Source: a virus. From it: DNA of 28,215 nucleotides. The position numbers and the translations under genes are program-made. The notes below the pieces were generated by a model. It had not been told where the DNA came from. It saw only the letters and a list, made by a program, of their open reading frames with translations, and did not search any database. Numbering within the stretch: position 1 is the stretch's first letter; the number at the start of each line of letters is the position of its first letter. Of the stretch, positions 3,143-27,588 are shown piece after piece. The stretch spans positions 1 to 28,215 of the IMG/VR virus record IMGVR_UViG_3300031162_000755, one strand, 5' to 3'.

Positions 3143-3341
3143 GTCACAAGCTATGTTAAATAATAAGCTATGCCCTACCCTTCAAGAAGAGTTGCAATGT
3201 GAGTACGGACAAGTTAAATGGATACTGAACTATAAGCTAGCAATGGATCAAAAAATTGCTGAAATGGGAGATTCATTGCCTTGGAAGTGGTGGAAAAAAC
3301 AAGAGTTAGAGGGTAATGAGGATAACAGGAGAATAACGTGA
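3117..3341 (+). pseudogene. Truncated dUTPase/MazG-like nucleotide pyrophosphohydrolase (N-terminal part)
   Basis: 74 residues that read like the N-terminal half of an all-alpha dimeric dUTPase or MazG-like enzyme: LEKIFRSQAMLNNKL, then helix KLAMDQKIAEMGDSLPWKWW and KKQE. In that superfamily the first ExxE metal motif lies just before the P-W-K-W-W block and a second ExxD motif follows about 20 residues later. Here the first Glu of ExxE is Lys (DQKIAEM), and the protein stops (NRRIT) before any ExxD. The HNH homing endonuclease gene starts at once, overlapping the stop by 4 bp. I searched the sequence after the HNH gene by eye for the missing E-x-x-D-x-x-H-F block and did not find it. Probably a remnant; a functional short protein is possible. 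Confidence 0.5.
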
Positions 3342-3814
3342 TACGAACACTCAAGGTTAATGGTTGTGAGGTTTTAATAGATGAGGATGATTACGAATTG
3401 GTTAAACAATATTCTTGGCATATCAACCCAAATAGAAAAGATAGAAAAACAGTTAGAGGCGTTGTTAATGGCAAGAAGGTGTACCTACACAGATTCTTAT
3501 TAGGTGTTACCAATAGAGATGTCCTAATTGATCACATTAATAGGAATCCTCTAGATAACAGAAAAAGTAATCTTAGGTTATGTACACCAAGTCAAAACCA
3601 ATATAACAGAGGTCCAAACAAGAATAGTACTAGCAGATATGTTGGAGTTCATTTTTGTAACGCTAGAAAAAAGTTCGTTTCACAAATTTGCTTTAAAAGA
3701 AAAGGTACTACTATAGGTGCTTTTGATTGTGAAGTTGAGGCTGCAAAGGCTAGAGATAAACAAGCAAAAAAACTATTTGGTGAATTTGCTTACATAAACA
3801 TTAAGGAGGATTAA
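3338..3814 (+). CDS. HNH homing endonuclease with AP2 DNA-binding domain
   Basis: 158 residues from a GTG start preceded by AGGAGA. The HNH nuclease core is seen as VYLHRFLLG (H51), VLIDHINRNPLDNRKSNLR (D65, H66, N81-type region) and CTPSQNQYN. The C-terminal AP2/ERF-like DNA-binding domain reads SRYVGVHFCNARKKFVSQIC, then FDCEVEAAKARDKQAKKLFG and YIN. This is the standard free-standing phage homing endonuclease family, which cuts cognate alleles lacking the insertion and spreads by repair. It sits directly against the truncated dUTPase-like gene, which suggests it inserted there. AGGAGG for the next gene overlaps its 3' end. Confidence 0.9.
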   Translation: MIRTLKVNGCEVLIDEDDYELVKQYSWHINPNRKDRKTVRGVVNGKKVYLHRFLLGVTNRDVLIDHINRNPLDNRKSNLRLCTPSQNQYNRGPNKNSTSRYVGVHFCNARKKFVSQICFKRKGTTIGAFDCEVEAAKARDKQAKKLFGEFAYINIKED

Positions 3815-5977: not shown

Positions 5978-7615
5978 TTAAAATGCTGACAATGAGTTGA
6001 GAAGTGAGCCGCCAATAGCTGGTGCTTCTTTTGCCAGCTCTCTTACTGGATCAGATGTTCTTATTCCTCCTCTTAATACCGATGTTGGAGTAATTGCATT
6101 GCTAACAGGTTGCATGAATGATTGACCAGCCTTACCAATTAGGTTCATACCGATTCTAGTAGTGCTGATATCTTTTGTTGGTAGAATAACGCCAAGCTCA
6201 TCTCCTGCTACTTTACTGATAACAGAATCCATAAATCTTCTTTCTTCAGGCATAACACTCTCAAGGTTACGAAGCTGTTTATATGTTTCTTGACGACCTG
6301 TCTTTAAACTTCTTGTTAAGATAGATGCTGCATTATCAGGTCCTTTTGTTATTAAATGGATTTCAGGTTCATCTAATGCTCGTCTGAACTTAGCATAGTT
6401 TCCTTTAGCTTCTGAGAATCCAGTATCATCTAATGCCTTTACAACCGCATCATCAATACTATCTCTGATTTTATTACGTATCTCTAGAGCTTGTCGCTTA
6501 ACATTTGTTAGATTTCCAGAACCTCTCTCTGATGCATCTTTATAAATAGCTTGAAACGCATCTGACTCATCAATGTTTTGTAAAACACGATTAAGGTTGT
6601 CCACTTCAGTAATGTCAACGTTAGGAAAATCCTCTAAAGTCTTTAAAACAGTTTCGCCGCCCTCAGATACTGGCACCTCTAAATTAGATGGACCAGGACT
6701 CTTTGTTAGGCTAGAGAATGCATCATCAAGAGTTTGTATTGCTTTATATCCTACTTCATCAGCACTCTGAGGTATAAAACCAGTCTTAGCACCTCTCTCA
6801 GAAGCCTCTCTTACAGATGGAGCAACCATATCCTTTAGAATGTTAATCTCATCAATTACTGGGGCGATATCAGCTTTGATACTTTGTCCTTCAACCGACT
6901 TCTTAACATCACCAACTAATCGACCTAACTCTTTTTTAGTTTCTACGATGCTAGCATGAGCTTTTGCAGCAATAGAATCTATTGTCTTGGGAGCTTCTTT
7001 AAGTTTTTTAGGATCTACTAATTCTGGCCTTTTAATAACCTCATCAACAATCTCATCACTGAATCGTTGTGATTTTCCAAGCGATAATTTTGAGGCTGCT
7101 TCTCCAGCAACTCCAAACAGACCTTTTTGAGCTAAAGTACTTTCTGCTACCTTCTTAGCAACATCTGGGGCAACGCTTCCAACTTTTTGAGCTGCTTTAA
7201 CTCCAAATTTACCAAACGCACTGGGTAGACCACCTAGAGCTAATCTAAGACCAAAATCAATACCAGCAGCAGTCATGCCTGCTTTATTAGCCTCTTCAAA
7301 GTCCTCGCCATCAATTAATGATTTCGCACCCTCTCCTAAGTATTCTGTTATTGGAGACGTTGGTAATGGTGATAGTAGCAATTGAGCAGCTGATATTCCA
7401 CTTTTAATGCCTTCAGGAGTAAACCTAGCCCCAGGACCTACAGCATCAGTTGTTTGTGCTGATGGTGTAGGAGTTGCAGGTAATGCTGATACACTTGCTG
7501 TCTCAGGAGCAATATCAGGAGAATCTACGTATTCAAACGATAATTGTCCTTGTCCAGTATCATAAACAGTATCAGGCTCTATTGGGTCATCAATATATTC
7601 AAAAAAATTTGCCAT
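5978..7615 (-). CDS. Putative DNA ejection (internal virion) protein, third of three
   Basis: 545 residues, last gene of the late operon. AAAGGA stands 8 nt before the ATG; 5 bp separate it from the gene before it. The N-terminus is acidic with a short imperfect repeat (FFEYIDDPIEPD and LSFEYVDSPDIAPE). A Gly/Ala-rich, partly hydrophobic stretch (residues 70-170) and long helical segments rich in Glu, Lys and Ala follow. I know no enzymatic motif in it. Three large Ala-rich helical proteins in a row downstream of head and tail genes match P22-type ejection proteins (gp7, gp20, gp16), which leave the virion with the DNA. The assignment rests on position, size and composition. Confidence 0.55.
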   Translation of the reverse strand: MANFFEYIDDPIEPDTVYDTGQGQLSFEYVDSPDIAPETASVSALPATPTPSAQTTDAVGPGARFTPEGIKSGISAAQLLLSPLPTSPITEYLGEGAKSLIDGEDFEEANKAGMTAAGIDFGLRLALGGLPSAFGKFGVKAAQKVGSVAPDVAKKVAESTLAQKGLFGVAGEAASKLSLGKSQRFSDEIVDEVIKRPELVDPKKLKEAPKTIDSIAAKAHASIVETKKELGRLVGDVKKSVEGQSIKADIAPVIDEINILKDMVAPSVREASERGAKTGFIPQSADEVGYKAIQTLDDAFSSLTKSPGPSNLEVPVSEGGETVLKTLEDFPNVDITEVDNLNRVLQNIDESDAFQAIYKDASERGSGNLTNVKRQALEIRNKIRDSIDDAVVKALDDTGFSEAKGNYAKFRRALDEPEIHLITKGPDNAASILTRSLKTGRQETYKQLRNLESVMPEERRFMDSVISKVAGDELGVILPTKDISTTRIGMNLIGKAGQSFMQPVSNAITPTSVLRGGIRTSDPVRELAKEAPAIGGSLLNSLSAF

Positions 7616-11819: not shown

Positions 11820-13255
11820 GAAAGAACCTCATACTCTTCTTGAGCTTCAACTATTTCTACATCAATTGCGTCTGTGCACGATAGTTCGTGTTGCATTATG
11901 TTGTAAATACCCTGTCTGTAAACTTTTGCAAGAGGATAATTAAAGCCTAGCTTTTGTGCTGGTATCTGATGCTCATTTGACCATCCTCTGTAGTCGTTAT
12001 TTCTTCTGTACATATAGTAAGGCATTGCATTGCCAGTGATAGTATGACCAGATTTAATTCTGAATGTAATTTTATCGCAACGTTTTCTAACTAAAGAAGC
12101 TCCATGATCAACAAACCCAGTTCTTCTAAGCCACTTCATTAACGTGCCATCATCGTCATAATAATCAAAAGACGACTCATAAATCTTATCGTCATTGTAA
12201 TCGCCAACTAAATGCTTGTTCCATCCAGCCGCATAAGCGTAGTTATTACCTCTATATCTAGCAAAGTCAGAACTTTCCCAGTACGCCCATTCAGCCCAAT
12301 AGTCATTCTTGTAATCATATACCCATGTCTTAGCATCTGTAGGGAACGTAATAACATAAAACCCTTTTCCGCCAACAACATAATGGTCTGCTATAGCATT
12401 ATCTGTAGCTGTTAGATCTTGAAGATTAGAAGCTATTGTTTCAGATATTGGGGTCTCCACTAACTGCCCAGATCGAGTAATTAACTTAATCTCTCGATTA
12501 TTATTCAAGAAGAATATCCCTTTAGGAGTATCTACGGCTGAATAAGCTGCAAAAGTACCGTCGTTAATAAAGATATCATTACGCCGTCTAAATGGTGTAA
12601 CACCATCGTTATACCAAAACTCAACACTAGACTCTCCAAATATAACAATATTTCTATCCTTTACCATTAAAGCTTTAGAAATATCAAAACTAGACTCTGC
12701 TGTTGCAAAATCTAAGTTTGACCAACTAAAAGGGTCTCCTACAGCTGAATAATAAAACTTATCGTTATTTGTATCGTTAGCTACTAAATATTGGTCAATA
12801 AATGACAAATGAGTACAATTAGTAGGGGCATCAGGGTCAGATAAAAAAGCAGGAGCAGTTGTTCCCTCAGTATAAGCAATTTGTCCTCCATTACACATGA
12901 AAAGGTAATCTGTACCACTAGAACTTGCTTCTGCAAATGTAACACGAGTTCCAGTGCTTAAAGATACACCGCCAAGACTAACTAAAGTTCCACTGCTATC
13001 TGTTATCTTATATATACTACCACCTGATACAACTACCAATATACTTCTACTTGCCCACCAATGCATCCCATCTATTGGAGACGAGGATGCAATTTCTTTG
13101 AACTCTAAAAGACCAGGCCGTCGTTTAAGTATATAACCACCTTTATCTCTAGGTACCATAATGCCATTAATATAGCTTTCAGCGGCTACAGTGTTAGATA
13201 TACCACTTACATCCTGGTACGGTTTAGAATTGATTGGTAATTCAGATACTGGCAT
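11816..13255 (-). CDS. Packaged DNA stabilisation protein, P22 gp10-like
   Basis: 479 residues, close to P22 gp10 (472). The sequence follows the Phage_stabilise family: N-terminal INSKPYQDVSGISNTVAAES, then NGIMVPRDKGGYILKRRPGL, a beta-propeller-like run including HWWASRSILVVVSGGSIYKI, LSFIDQYLVANDTNNDKFYY, VIFGESSVEFWYNDG, GIFFLNNNREIKLI, and a C-terminal beta domain beginning around RKRCDKITFRIKSG. In P22, gp10 joins the gp4 adaptor to close the portal channel after packaging and receives the needle. The gene starts by TAATG overlap with the previous stop. Confidence 0.8.
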   Translation of the reverse strand: MPVSELPINSKPYQDVSGISNTVAAESYINGIMVPRDKGGYILKRRPGLLEFKEIASSSPIDGMHWWASRSILVVVSGGSIYKITDSSGTLVSLGGVSLSTGTRVTFAEASSSGTDYLFMCNGGQIAYTEGTTAPAFLSDPDAPTNCTHLSFIDQYLVANDTNNDKFYYSAVGDPFSWSNLDFATAESSFDISKALMVKDRNIVIFGESSVEFWYNDGVTPFRRRNDIFINDGTFAAYSAVDTPKGIFFLNNNREIKLITRSGQLVETPISETIASNLQDLTATDNAIADHYVVGGKGFYVITFPTDAKTWVYDYKNDYWAEWAYWESSDFARYRGNNYAYAAGWNKHLVGDYNDDKIYESSFDYYDDDGTLMKWLRRTGFVDHGASLVRKRCDKITFRIKSGHTITGNAMPYYMYRRNNDYRGWSNEHQIPAQKLGFNYPLAKVYRQGIYNIMQHELSCTDAIDVEIVEAQEEYEVLS

Positions 13256-13605
13256 TAGCTGTCAGACTTCTTAGCAAAAGTAATATTAGCATTGATAAGA
13301 TCTTTAAGTTTTTTCTTAGTTTCTGAATCTAAACTTTTAGTTCTCCAGGTAATATAAGTACTCAAGTAAGATAATGCTTGATCGTCTAATTTAGTTTTAG
13401 TCTTAGATGTTATTTCTTTTGCAATATCCAAATATGTAGAGGCTACCTCTGCTGCCTGCTTGCTAAATAAAATCAAAAATAGTTTCTTAATGTATTTCAT
13501 ATCTATCTCTGCTGTTTGCTTTCTAAATAAAATCAAAAATAGTTTCTTAATGTATTCTGTCTGCTTTCTAAATAAAATTAAAAATAGTTTCTTAATGTAT
13601 TGCAT
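13255..13605 (-). CDS. Small protein with triplicated N-terminal YIKKLFLILF segment
   Basis: 116 residues. AGGAG lies 5 nt before the first ATG. The N-terminus holds three copies of a hydrophobic/basic segment (MQYIKKLFLILFRKQ, EYIKKLFLILFRKQ, MKYIKKLFLILFSKQ). The third copy has its own ATG preceded by AGAGATAGAT, matching the sequence before the first ATG, so an 81-residue ancestral form probably started there (MKYIKKLFLILFSKQAAEVA). The rest is helical (LDIAKEITSKTKTKLDDQ; SETKKKLKDLINANITF). The hydrophobic stretches are too short and charged to be sure transmembrane helices; membrane binding or a holin-like role is possible given the neighbouring DUF5675 gene, but not shown. Confidence 0.6.
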   Translation of the reverse strand: MQYIKKLFLILFRKQTEYIKKLFLILFRKQTAEIDMKYIKKLFLILFSKQAAEVASTYLDIAKEITSKTKTKLDDQALSYLSTYITWRTKSLDSETKKKLKDLINANITFAKKSDS

Positions 13606-16795: not shown

Positions 16796-17122
16796 TTATT
16801 TACCCTCTAAAACTTCGTTTATTCTAGCGTACGTTAGTGGTGGGAAACCAGCTTTATTAACGTAGTTCTTAATAAAAGAGATTTCATCAGTAGATAATTC
16901 AATAGCCCCTTCTGATTCACTGATTTTCTTTGAAATATCAAATCTTTTCAATTTGTCTTCTCCAGAACATTTGTCATCGTCTTTATATGCTGCCATTAAT
17001 GCATTGATGATAGGGCTACTAATAAGAATTGACTCAATCTTAACGTCTCCATCAGTACTAACTTCCTGGCGCATCTCATTTCCTGAAAAATCTTTCATTG
17101 GCTGTTTAAAATTAATTTTCAT
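16796..17122 (-). CDS. Conserved-type phage protein of unknown function between adaptor and fibre
   Basis: 108 residues; GGGAGA lies 7 nt before the ATG. It begins MKINFKQPMKDFSGNEMRQE, contains SPIINALMAAYKDDDKCSGE and DKLKRFDISKKI, and ends in a FIKNYVNKAGFPPLTYARIN helix. Many podo- and siphoviruses encode a small protein with this layout (K-x-x-F-x-x-P-L-K-D-F, then a D-K-L-K-R-F-D-[IL] helix) near their head-tail connector genes, but no function is established that I can name. Spacing is short on both sides, consistent with one operon. Confidence 0.6.
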   Translation of the reverse strand: MKINFKQPMKDFSGNEMRQEVSTDGDVKIESILISSPIINALMAAYKDDDKCSGEDKLKRFDISKKISESEGAIELSTDEISFIKNYVNKAGFPPLTYARINEVLEGK

Positions 17123-20889: not shown

Positions 20890-20919
20890 ATAATAGCATT
20901 GTTGATAACTTGTGGACAA
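20890..20919 (-). promoter_or_regulatory. Candidate late promoter for scaffold/capsid genes with DnaA-box-like core
   Basis: On the minus strand TTGTCC (-35), 18 bp, then TATTAT (-10) stand in the 94-bp gap upstream of the scaffold gene. The spacer contains GTTATCAACA. The same arrangement with the same spacer core occurs upstream of the portal-proximal gene (23556-23585). A second TTGTCCACA copy lies 11 bp further upstream. Confidence 0.55.
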
Positions 20920-20941
20920 CCTGTGGACAACCTGTGAAAAA

Positions 20942-23107
20942 CTATTGAAGTTGAACAGGACCTTGAGGAAGAGGTTGCAATGTATTTGGATCTCTATCTT
21001 TAGCTAATACAGTTCTAGCAATTTGTGCTTGGTTATCCATCTGCTTTAACTGCATCTCTTGCTGAGATTGTTGTGATAGCATCTGTTTATACTTTTCAGC
21101 ATCTGATGGGCTAACAATACCTGCTTGTTTAGCTAAATCAATTGAAATTGGGTTAAGTGAACCCGATTGCATTAACTCAGTCATAACTGCAAACCTATCA
21201 AGGTTCTTAGTTGGACTATTTGCAGACTCTGATATAGAGATATCATACTTAGTAAAATCAATATTTTCTAAGAACTGACGAATAAATGCTGGGTCAATTT
21301 CACTAAAATTCATTTGTTGCCCATCATCGCCAGTTAATTGGAACGGCTCCATAGCATTTTGATCATGAAGAATTTGCATAATACGATCAACAGTAAATAC
21401 ATCCTGAATGATCTTAACAAGGACTTTCCCTAATCTCTTTTTAGCTAGAGATAAATTATCAAACAAATAATCATTTGTAGTTAGACCCTGTCTTAACCTA
21501 CGAGCAATAGCAACTCCAGACTTAGCATTAGACTCTTGGCCTAGTATCTCATTACTAATACCAGATACCTCTCTCATCTTCTGAGAGCTTAACTGCATCA
21601 TATTAACAAGCTCTGATGGGAACCTATTCCTATCTGCTTTTTGAGGCGTTCTAGATAAATCTGTAACTTTAACTGCCCAACCTGGAGTATTGCAATTATC
21701 TAGAAAATTATTCTCTTCTTCTTGAGACGCAAATGTTTGATCATCAAAGAACCAGCCATCATTGTTAGACCTATTAACAACATCAATAGCTTGGCTATGA
21801 CGCTTATTAATCTCTTTTTGAAGGTCAATTAACGGCTCAACTTTACCTTGAACGTAATCATCCTCTTTAGATGCATACACTGGCACAACATTAAAGTCAT
21901 GTAGTGTTGAAACTCTTTTATCTAATAATGTCTTCCCAGCAATTGTTATAACTTCCATCTGCCATTTAGGTACTGACCTATCTTGCATGCCTGGAATATT
22001 TTTTGCTTTTTTGAAATCCTCTTTAGATAACCTTGAACTGTCATCATAAATAAACTCATTCTCAGAATCCTCAATATTAATTAGAACCTTAACTTCTTCA
22101 TAACGCTTGCGCCACATCTCAAGAATCTTAAAATTCTTCTTCTGAACATCAACAACCATCTGCCCACCAATCTCAGTAGGTACAGCCATTCCTGTAGCAT
22201 ATTGGTCGCCAGGATTATCAATAATTGGATTTTGAACCTTATTCTCAGCTAAATTCATATCAGCAGAAAGCTCTTCAGCCTTTTCTGGATACATAGCCGA
22301 TAGCTTGCCTTGTGAATACCATTTTGTTTTAACAAGATACTCTAAATCTGAACAATCTTCATAATCATGTGGTCCTAAGAAAATGTTATCCCATTTGTAT
22401 CGTACAATCTTAATATCACCTTCGGAAGAATCCTCAAACGTAACATAAACATCAAAAAACCCACGACCAGTAATAATTTGGTCTAAAAACACCTTAGATT
22501 CGTGTTGAGCAAAATTAGCAGTATCTAGCACATACTTCAAAATAATATTTGCCAGCTCTGCGCCTCTTGGATCTGCATCTTCAATAGGAAATGTTTTGAT
22601 ATCTGTTCTGTTTTGTCTTTGATGTCCCGACAAGGCCTGCATTAAAGGTCGAATCTCATTCGATGTAATACATGCCCTTCCATTAGCCTCTAAATATTGC
22701 TTTGTAGCTGTATCCCATTGATCGCCATTATAAAAGCTATATGCATTATCACCACGAGTCCTGAAATTATATTCAAGCTCTGATGATTGCGTAAAAAGAG
22801 CATGGACCTCATTAATAAGGTCTTCATCGTCACCAGAAACTACAGGGTCTTCCTTTTCTTCTAATTGCAACTCAATAACTTCATGAGTATGACCCTCTGA
22901 CTCTAATAACCTAATACGCTGGGGGGAGCCTTCTTGTACAACTTGCCCAGTCTCAAGGTTTATAATCTCAGGAGTAGCAAATTGAACCTCAACTTCATGA
23001 GAATGCTGGTTCTCCTCATCTGGAGATGTATAACCTGTACCATCATCTCTGATGTATACAACGTGATAATGGTCGTTATGATATGTCGTTTTTTTAAGTT
23101 GTGGCAT
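20942..23107 (-). CDS. Portal protein, P22 type
   Basis: 721 residues, nearly the P22 portal length (725). A His-rich N-terminal extension (TTYHNDHYHVVYIRDDGTGY; HSHEVEV; GHTHEV) precedes the core: YSFYNGDQWD, then CITSNEIRPLMQALSGHQRQ, FDVYVTFEDSSEGDIKIVRY, then KWDNIFLGPHDYEDCSDLEY, YVQGKVEPLIDLQKEINKRH, then VNRSNNDGWFFDDQTF and GISNEILGQESNAKSGVAIA. The C-terminus is a Gln-rich helix (KQMLSQQSQQEMQLKQMDNQ), like the P22 barrel region. It forms the dodecameric DNA channel. The start codon lies inside the 3' end of the scrambled gene upstream, and its ribosome site (TTAGAGGA) sits at the junction with a copied fragment of this same gene. Confidence 0.85.
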   Translation of the reverse strand: MPQLKKTTYHNDHYHVVYIRDDGTGYTSPDEENQHSHEVEVQFATPEIINLETGQVVQEGSPQRIRLLESEGHTHEVIELQLEEKEDPVVSGDDEDLINEVHALFTQSSELEYNFRTRGDNAYSFYNGDQWDTATKQYLEANGRACITSNEIRPLMQALSGHQRQNRTDIKTFPIEDADPRGAELANIILKYVLDTANFAQHESKVFLDQIITGRGFFDVYVTFEDSSEGDIKIVRYKWDNIFLGPHDYEDCSDLEYLVKTKWYSQGKLSAMYPEKAEELSADMNLAENKVQNPIIDNPGDQYATGMAVPTEIGGQMVVDVQKKNFKILEMWRKRYEEVKVLINIEDSENEFIYDDSSRLSKEDFKKAKNIPGMQDRSVPKWQMEVITIAGKTLLDKRVSTLHDFNVVPVYASKEDDYVQGKVEPLIDLQKEINKRHSQAIDVVNRSNNDGWFFDDQTFASQEEENNFLDNCNTPGWAVKVTDLSRTPQKADRNRFPSELVNMMQLSSQKMREVSGISNEILGQESNAKSGVAIARRLRQGLTTNDYLFDNLSLAKKRLGKVLVKIIQDVFTVDRIMQILHDQNAMEPFQLTGDDGQQMNFSEIDPAFIRQFLENIDFTKYDISISESANSPTKNLDRFAVMTELMQSGSLNPISIDLAKQAGIVSPSDAEKYKQMLSQQSQQEMQLKQMDNQAQIARTVLAKDRDPNTLQPLPQGPVQLQ
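22340..22420 (-). repeat. Donor copy of an 81-bp portal segment duplicated upstream of the gene
   Basis: This segment of the portal gene, encoding about GDIKIVRYKWDNIFL onward to DCSDLE, matches 23115-23195 in the same orientation with only 4 mismatches by eye. Confidence 0.9.
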
Positions 23108-23114
23108 CGTAATC

Positions 23115-23195
23115 CTCTAAATCTGAACAATCTTCATAATCATGTGGTCCTAAGAAAATGTTATCCCGTTTGTATCGTGCAATCTTAACATCCCC
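23115..23195 (-). repeat. Copied 81-bp portal segment
   Basis: Second copy of the portal segment at 22340-22420, offset by 775 bp. The four differences include two amino-acid changes (W to R and V to A). It joins the repeat module at shared GAT-x-TTAAGATT, which suggests microhomology-driven recombination. Confidence 0.9.
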
Positions 23196-23390
23196 ATCAG
23201 CCTCAAAAATACGGTGAATAACCCCAGCTGCTAAGTTAGTAGATGTAACATCTGCTCCTAATAATGTATCAATCTTAACATCCCCATCAGCCCCATCAGC
23301 CTCAAAAATAGGGCAAATAACCCCAGCTTTTAAGTTAGTAAATGTAACATCTGTTCTTGATAATGTATCAATCTTAATCAATCTTAACAT
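23184..23390 (-). repeat. Nested tandem duplications in the spike-base-like gene
   Basis: Two diverged units of 90 and 99 bp run from 23184 and 23274, both starting cttaacatccccatcag and ending ataatgtatcaat. The second unit has an extra 9-bp copy (ccccatcag). A 10-bp duplication (aatcttaatcaatcttaa) at about 23370-23389 causes the frameshift. Confidence 0.85.
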
Positions 23391-23555
23391 CCCCATCAGC
23401 TCGAAAATAAATGCCTCGAGCAATTGTAGATAAACCTGTTGAATCATTAGGTGTTATAGAAAAAGCATCTGTAGCTGGCTTTGTAACATCAACTGACCGA
23501 TGCAAGTCGGATTCATTAGGTATTGCCATATCAATCTCCTATAGTGTTTTTCAAT

Positions 23556-23585
23556 ATAATAACACTGTGGATAACACATGGACAA
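23556..23585 (-). promoter_or_regulatory. Candidate late promoter upstream of the spike-base-like gene and portal, with perfect DnaA box
   Basis: On the minus strand TTGTCC, 18 bp, TATTAT; the spacer contains GTTATCCACA, a perfect DnaA box (TTATCCACA). The predicted start point near 23549 is 20 bp before the ATG at 23529. It has the same layout as the site at 20890-20919. Confidence 0.55.
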
Positions 23586-23597
23586 GCTGTTAATAAC

Positions 23598-25211
23598 TTA
23601 TGCTCTCATCCAGCTATCTTTTGATATTCTACTCTGTCTACGCTGCCTCAATCGCTCCTTCTCATATTCATCTACTGCAACACGACTCCGATACGTAGAA
23701 TCATTGAAATAAAACGTCAAAACAAGGGCATCTGCCTTATTAGGGGATGCAACACCCCTTCTCCTCATATCTCTTTTCGACTCAATCTTAATTTTACCGT
23801 TACTTTCGATCTTATATTTTACATTTGACAACTCAAATATCAATTCTTCATCATCTGGTATTGAAATAAAACCCTCTTCAAAGGTTTTTCGCATCTTCCA
23901 CCATAATTCATCCCTTAACCGTTCAAACTTATCTTTCCTGCTCGTACTCTCAGAGACATTAATACCAGTAACTCTATGTCCCATCTCTCGTACCCTGTCA
24001 AAAACTCCATACCCCATACCAATCAAGTCAATTCCAACACAATGAGGCTCTTCTTCACCCATATGCAGGCCAATCCACCCCGCCATCTCCATAGTATTCT
24101 GGCCATTAAAGGATTTTATATTCTTATCGACTTTCATGCCCTGTCGAGTCAAAATGACTGACTTATCGTCCCCTTGACGAGCTAAATCCACCGCACTAAT
24201 AATCGGGTCATCTGACTCAATATGAATATCTCGGTTAACAGCTGACATAACCCATTCAAGTGGGATAACAGAATCACTATCACCAACTGGCTCTAACCCA
24301 AGAACGCTAATACGGTAGGCGTTGGAATCCTTTCCGTATTTTCTAGCAACTCTCTCAATCGATTCTTTAGATACGTTTTCAGACTCTTCACAATTCCATC
24401 GATATGTAAGCCACTCATCTTTATGTTTATGTTGTGATCGATACGCAAATCCACTTGTCCTTGTCGGGTTATAAGTCATGACAAGGAAGTTAACAGGGTC
24501 TGTTAACGTCTGATCTAACGGTGCAAATACATTATCTGCAACCCCAGTCGCCTCATCAACAATAATCATCATATGCTTTGAATGGAATCCTTGCAATGTC
24601 TCAGCAGGAGTATCAGCAGAACCAGAAGTAGCCGCAGACCGAGCAATCGCATACCAGTCTCTACCCTCATTGCCAGAATGCCCCTTCATGAACACCTTCT
24701 CGCCATGCACTTCTAATGAATCTTTAACCAATGTCCCAAACTTACCCTTATCGACACTATTCTTAATCCACTTCGAAATCTCTCGCCATAAAACGTCCTT
24801 AACATGATCAAGCTTAGGTGCCGTACATGGAACTAACGCTTCATCAAAACACATCAAAAACCAAATAACTAACCATGCTTCAGTAGTCGTTTTACCAGGT
24901 CCTTTACCAGACTTAATTGAAACGCCCGTCTTCTTTTGAAAAATACAAGCCTCTTCATACGTAATATTTAAATCAACAGACTTCGCTAACTTCGGGACAT
25001 CTATCTCATTTAACTTATTTAACTCCAAACACTTCTTAGAAAAAACTAATTTACCAATATCCCTCAACACTGTGAGCTGCTGCGTTGTCATCGTCTTAGC
25101 ATAAGGGTCTTCATTCTTATAACTAAGTGTCTTAACTCCTAACACCTCCACAACAAATACGTCGGGATGGTATCTCCAGTACTTAATTCTATCTAATACC
25201 TTTGCTGACAT
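23598..25211 (-). CDS. Terminase large subunit
   Basis: 537 residues. ATPase domain: Walker A-type SGKGPGKTT (101-109), Walker B MMIIVDE (D219, E220) and coupling segment FLVMTYNPTRTSG (242-254). RNase H-like nuclease domain: ISAVDLARQGDDKS (D342), CVGIDLIGMG (D395) and SPNKADALVL (D494), giving the three expected acidic residues. The protein translocates DNA into the prohead and cuts it. The start forms TAATG with the stop of the membrane protein gene, and TerS lies two genes upstream. Order and size are standard for the podoviral packaging motor. Confidence 0.9.
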   Translation of the reverse strand: MSAKVLDRIKYWRYHPDVFVVEVLGVKTLSYKNEDPYAKTMTTQQLTVLRDIGKLVFSKKCLELNKLNEIDVPKLAKSVDLNITYEEACIFQKKTGVSIKSGKGPGKTTTEAWLVIWFLMCFDEALVPCTAPKLDHVKDVLWREISKWIKNSVDKGKFGTLVKDSLEVHGEKVFMKGHSGNEGRDWYAIARSAATSGSADTPAETLQGFHSKHMMIIVDEATGVADNVFAPLDQTLTDPVNFLVMTYNPTRTSGFAYRSQHKHKDEWLTYRWNCEESENVSKESIERVARKYGKDSNAYRISVLGLEPVGDSDSVIPLEWVMSAVNRDIHIESDDPIISAVDLARQGDDKSVILTRQGMKVDKNIKSFNGQNTMEMAGWIGLHMGEEEPHCVGIDLIGMGYGVFDRVREMGHRVTGINVSESTSRKDKFERLRDELWWKMRKTFEEGFISIPDDEELIFELSNVKYKIESNGKIKIESKRDMRRRGVASPNKADALVLTFYFNDSTYRSRVAVDEYEKERLRQRRQSRISKDSWMRA

Positions 25212-27246: not shown

Positions 27247-27369
27247 GTATTTTGTATTTTAACAGCGGTTCATGGATGGGGCTACTTGTTTTTTGTGGGG
27301 GTTGGAGGTGGGTATATGACTATATTGTATTCCTTATATCCCCCCCTACCCCCTATACCCCCCCCTAAC

Positions 27370-27456
27370 TTTTCCACAACTTTTCCACAACTAAAACAGC
27401 CTCAATTATCAATGTTATCCACAGTTTATCCACATTTTATCCATAAGTTTTCCACA
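27370..27456 (+). other. DnaA-box array, candidate replication origin
   Basis: Six 9-mers lie in the same orientation: TTTTCCACA at 27370 and 27381 (11-bp tandem repeat), perfect TTATCCACA at 27415 and 27426, TTATCCATA at 27437 and TTTTCCACA at 27448. Next to them lie the C8/C5/C7 tracts, and an AT-rich stretch follows. Host DnaA binding is the natural prediction. Confidence 0.6.
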
Positions 27457-27588
27457 GGCTAAAGAATTATTAATTGTTCCTCGCAACTTTAATAACTACA
27501 AACACTACTCACTATTTGCAAAACAACAACCTCTACAACATATATCAAGTCAAAACCAATACATCACTACCATAAAACGATTACCACA

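Follow-up and report, generated by a model that had tools for sequence, protein, structure and literature searches.

A head-spike-base gene of the RcGTA Rcc01079 family, recently decayed and carrying a templated insertion of portal sequence, probably accounts for the locus between the terminase and portal genes of a 28.2-kb uncultured virus record (the window, meaning the whole stretch of DNA analysed), as read from the sequence. The locus is on the minus strand, on which the structural genes follow in the order terminase, spike-base locus, P22-like portal, scaffold-like gene and major capsid protein. The terminase large subunit (23598..25211, minus strand; PHROG 2, E 6e-35) and the intact P22-like portal gene (20942..23107, minus strand; Pfam PF16510, 311.7 bits) enclose ORF1 (51 aa, 23374..23529, minus strand), which has the ribosome site AGGAG, starts with ATG at 23529 and encodes the N-terminal part of a spike-base protein (profile positions 6-45 of 85). 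ORF2 (117 aa, 23094..23447, minus strand) is open across two repeated modules and the portal copy, and its stop sits within the portal gene start.

Previous work described the RcGTA spike-base protein as a jelly-roll pentamer on the capsid vertices that carries a single fibre for binding to the host capsule (PMC7296036). The family is covered by NCBIfam NF048002 (85 profile positions, curated cut-off 28 bits), and the spike-base-like start reported by the initial annotation is genuine, since the first 51 residues alone pass this cut-off (38.2 vs 28 bits). The read-through frame matched the profile at positions 6-66 of 85 with E 8.5e-19 and 61-68 bits, and the PDB chain of the RcGTA spike base was matched at 12-71 (E 0.029). 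Like Rcc01079 (NF048002; PDB 6tb9, 6tba, 6tsu, 6tui), with which its first 51 residues and module A align at profile positions 6-66, the window gene is a small gene within a virion operon; unlike Rcc01079, it is stopped after residue 51, has a duplicated core, has lost the last 19 of the 85 profile positions, ends in a portal-derived tail and has no recognisable adjoining fibre gene. It is not the single open reading frame typical of the family, because the 10-bp duplication causes a stop at codon 52, nor a complete 85-position jelly roll, because coverage ends at position 66 and is split near position 45. The C-terminal strand ATxTTATxIVGLV was found in no minus-strand frame of 23050-23600.

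The two diverged module copies (90/99 bp) and the 9-bp and 10-bp duplications that had been described are all present. Module A (23288..23377, minus strand; internal repeat comparison and NF048002 profile) extends to family profile position 66, and module B (23189..23278, minus strand; internal repeat comparison) is the second copy of this 90-bp unit, 89% identical to the first. Their spacing is 99 bp because of a perfect, in-frame 9-bp tandem duplication of CCCCATCAG (x2.2, 23282..23301), while the perfect 10-bp tandem duplication of ATCAATCTTA (x2.1, 23367..23387) shifts the frame and brings the TAA that ends ORF1 into frame after residue 51. The spike gene has three occurrences of the word CTGATGGGGATGTTAAGATTG (23378-23399, 23269-23290 and 23179-23200), the last of them a partial copy on the minus strand, found by word search, where spike-gene sequence passes into that of the portal. 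Each occurrence has a lesion within or next to it, which is the 10-bp duplication for the first, the 9-bp duplication for the second and the portal joint for the third. Outside the spike gene, a fourth occurrence, near-identical (20/22) to CTGATGGGGATGTTAAGATTG / CTGATGGGGATGTTAAGATTGA, lies at 17034-17055 inside an unrelated gene (16796-17122), where relatives vary in length, and may be a chance match at DGDVKI codons.

Repeats were also seen elsewhere. Another nested duplication in this genome is found in a 116-aa gene on the minus strand (13255-13605), which begins with three near-copies of YIKKLFLILFRKQT produced by 60-bp and 45-bp tandem duplications, and a beta-solenoid gene at the left window edge (10-387; YdcK-type repeats, PF18836) is built of 18-bp repeats. 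In the distant relative L005, an 85-bp direct repeat (6957-7041 / 7354-7438) is 87% identical over copies 397 bp apart. Among the early genes, 3338-3814 encodes a free-standing HNH endonuclease, possibly a homing endonuclease, whose AP2-like domain scores under the AP2 cut-off.

When the record was searched against itself, 23112-23198 matched 22337-22423 of the portal at 93% over 87 bp with E 5e-33, and the match is therefore not due to chance. The 81-bp portal copy claimed earlier is thus real and of the same source, and its length needs trimming: only the 66 bp of 23115..23180 (minus strand), equal to 22340-22405 with 2 mismatches (V to A, W to R) in the alignment to the portal, must come from the portal, and the rest is the shared junction word GATRTTAAGATTG. 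This word is common to both partners (portal 22405-22417) over 13 bp with one mismatch, which bears out the microhomology proposed for the joint. The donor in the portal gene is 22340..22417 (minus strand), which includes the microhomology word GATATTAAGATTG at 22405-22417. At the junction word the copy reads as the spike gene does, and therefore the switch occurred within or at the edge of the word; the joint peptide spans FEADGDVKIARYK. At the downstream end, the portal match finishes with TTAGAG and the copy runs on as GATTACGATG into the portal start, with the AGAGGA at its end serving as the predicted portal ribosome site. The left joint is thus readable as a 13-bp shared word with one mismatch, and the sequence that stood at the right joint before the event is lost. 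The two differing residues, V235 and W239 of the portal, are invariant in the aligned portals (L006, L007) and are A and R in the copy, and the portal is therefore the donor, in agreement with the source first proposed. As expected of a templated insertion, an intact donor is close by, the portal gene being intact and the 66-bp copy lying 775 bp away. The junction pattern had 0 matches in IMG/VR.

An assembly artefact or strain chimera has to be considered, because the source is an uncultured virus contig and short-k assembly may go wrong over repeats of 50-90 bp. We regard it as quite unlikely: the copies have private substitutions, 2 in the portal tract and 9 between the modules, where re-used reads would be identical, both portal-tract substitutions fall within 13 bases of the left joint, and the joint word (13 bp, one mismatch) is shorter than the usual assembly words.

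Modules A and B have 9 nucleotide differences over 75 aligned nt, in 7 codons, and the portal copy has 2 differences from the portal in 2 codons. Every one of these changes alters an amino acid, so that 0/11 changes among the copies are synonymous, and 0/11 are at third codon positions. In a selection-free simulation, the probability of no synonymous change was 0.04-0.11 and that of no stop was 0.57-0.80; random substitution thus leaves the frame open in 57-80% of trials, and the open ORF2 is therefore no evidence of function. Neutrality is not clearly rejected by these comparisons, and purifying selection is not indicated. The absence of third-position changes is a mild oddity that mildly suggests change-promoting selection over plain drift. 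Near-identical copies whose differences are all amino-acid-changing could also be expected from a diversity-generating retroelement or another variable-repeat system, which we consider exceedingly improbable; the differences extend beyond the adenines of any single strand, and the window proteins searched included none recognised as a reverse transcriptase. We rejected the retroelement because the mixed substitutions contradict its adenine-specific pattern.

The initial annotation allowed for two outcomes, a new fusion protein or simple decay, of which decay fits much better and fusion is poorly supported, because the frame is stopped after residue 51, 19 profile positions are gone, and neither a fibre partner nor a sign of purifying selection is seen. 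Two points count against decay: ORF2 runs for 117 codons without a stop, and the reading frame is preserved at the 90-bp, 9-bp and portal joints alike, both of which a selected fusion would show. A new functional protein would have ORF2 expressed by reinitiation or +1 frameshift, with the duplicated module replacing the lost jelly-roll strand and the portal peptide as its tail. Every joint except the 10-bp duplication keeps the frame, an alignment pairs module B (TLLGADVTSTNLAAGV) with the C-terminal strand that intact homologues have, and no change falls in a third position, all as such a protein would have it; we nevertheless judge it unlikely, as ORF2 scores 21.1 bits, under the NF048002 cut-off, module B and the portal copy alter conserved residues, and the partner fibre gene was not recognised in the window. 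The GAT-TAA-G at the frame break is not known as a slippery +1 site. The read-through model also speaks against a functional protein, with pLDDT lowest after module A (mean 44.2, and 29-40 for the blocks from module B on, from a shallow alignment), whereas an intact homologue with a similarly shallow alignment reached a mean of 64.9, with 84-86 for the last strand and the expected strands. This contrast agrees weakly with decay, and the low confidence of the fold may stem from how shallow the alignment is; the read-through model was too uncertain to be a basis for interpretation and was set aside.

Phase variation, in which the 10-bp duplication would gain or lose a copy by slippage and so toggle the spike-base frame, would draw on two perfect copies right at the frame break, behind a promoter-like element. 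It is highly improbable, because the ON state would still be truncated and portal-tailed, the family C-terminus being missing even without the 10-bp insertion, and two is a small copy number for a contingency locus. The combined history, in which template switching rebuilds a virion gene, a module replaces the lost strand, portal sequence forms the tail and 10-bp slippage acts as an on/off switch, seems very unlikely to us as well.

Decay of a once intact gene remains the preferred reading when the homologues are compared. All intact homologues scanned (L013, L014, L075, L077 and L080) extend to the end of the NF048002 profile. The spike-base genes of L080 (a Nitrospina MAG contig) and L075 belong to the same family as the window gene, and in L080 the base and Laminin_G_3 pair also lies between terminase and portal; unlike the window gene, both are full-length and single-copy with a Laminin_G_3 protein coming next, and the L080 portal is of another family (PF04860) than the window portal. 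In the window, the portal directly follows the spike-base gene with no spike-fibre gene between. The RcGTA fibre starts with IALGLGLGL (PMC7296036), and no such start was found among the window ORFs of at least 90 aa; the window may be less than the whole genome.

The nearest phages by portal identity were L009 and L006 (65%), L010 (62%), and L011 and L007 (49%). Their terminase-portal gaps and those of further relatives differ: other small genes occupy the gap in L009, L010, L011, L021 and L032, and there is almost no room in L028 and L030. The exact arrangement, whose conservation over large divergence had been named as a refutation, was not seen in relatives, an NF048002 match over the cut-off occurring in 0/20 related phage records, several of which are fragments. 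A fragment just past the terminase of L009 (GGVKVVASGANTHVAAGIMGYLAKVV, alternate frame) was tried as a spike-base remnant and left unused, its PHROG search being empty. The portal region had no match to deposited phages at the DNA level, ORF2 as a query found no relative in IMG/VR, and the portal alignment searched in genome contigs found none. With the closest relatives found at only ~65% portal identity, the ancestral state at the locus is unseen, which counts against the decay reading. In L009, L010 and L011, the stop of the upstream gene is at or just within the portal start, as for ORF2, and translational coupling of the upstream gene and the portal is possible.

A promoter-like element stands before the spike-base gene (23556..23594, minus strand), consisting of the 11-bp repeats TTGTCCATGTG and TTATCCACAGT followed by TATTAT preceded by TG. 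The predicted hexamers (TTGTCC-18-TATTAT) agree with the consensus at 9/12 positions, with TG before the second hexamer; hexamer matches in the region reach a chance number, and such a match alone is weak. The core TTATCCACAGTGTTATTAT is exact at the window element and has another exact occurrence between the portal and scaffold genes of L009 (5808-5826), and none of the window shuffles gave 2 matches of it within 3 mismatches. With such an element before it, and a core that recurs in L009, the spike-base remnant probably lies at the beginning of a transcript that also carries the portal. An Rfam search of the window returned no RNA family. Intergenic 11-bp-period repeats (TTATCCACAGG/T, DnaA-box-like) are present at 20890-20936, 23556-23594 and 27367-27457, two of these three sites being followed by TATTAT, and the element is also found between portal and scaffold in L009 (5764-5827) and L010 (3435-3477). 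These sites may be a phage promoter equipped with phased operator repeats, the cluster at 27367-27457 being origin-like.

We infer slippage and microhomology-driven template switching as the mechanism. A spike-base gene would have been acquired in the terminase-portal gap, and replication slippage or end misalignment in the repeated word GGGGATGTTAAGATTG may then have produced the module and the short duplications. Separately, a 3' end that had broken or stalled within the spike gene may have paired with GATATTAAGATTG of the portal, either in its own genome or in a sister genome, been extended by 66 bases copied from the portal, ~0.8 kb downstream, and then been joined back at a match of the AGAG type immediately ahead of the portal start, where the original sequence was lost. 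Such rejoining would have removed the end of the spike gene, perhaps together with the fibre gene, and would have left the AGAGGA ribosome site for the portal. In the simplest history, ordered by divergence on few changes, the 90-bp duplication would be the oldest event (12% diverged over the compared 75 nt), the templated portal insertion would be next (3% diverged), and the perfect 9-bp and 10-bp duplications would be the youngest. The remnant may now be mainly a 5' leader of the portal message behind the conserved promoter-like element, and translation of ORF1 into a non-functional fragment may still take place.

Templated (filler) insertions and microhomology-mediated template switching are known in break repair and replication in many organisms. 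The locus resembles such insertions in its short, nearby, same-strand donor, the short shared word at the joint and the adjacent local duplications, and differs from them in being set in a phage virion operon and in drawing on the adjacent portal gene. Our literature search for templated insertions or portal fragments in phages found nothing directly on point. The parts are of known kinds, and their stacked combination is a good example and no new phenomenon. At a single sequence word in a phage structural operon it captures several short-homology rearrangements piled on one another, with donor, joint and drift all readable, and it is a natural case for asking how phages lose or remake surface-decoration genes. 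Further, it raises the question of whether the terminase-portal gap generally serves as a docking place for small and dispensable virion proteins.
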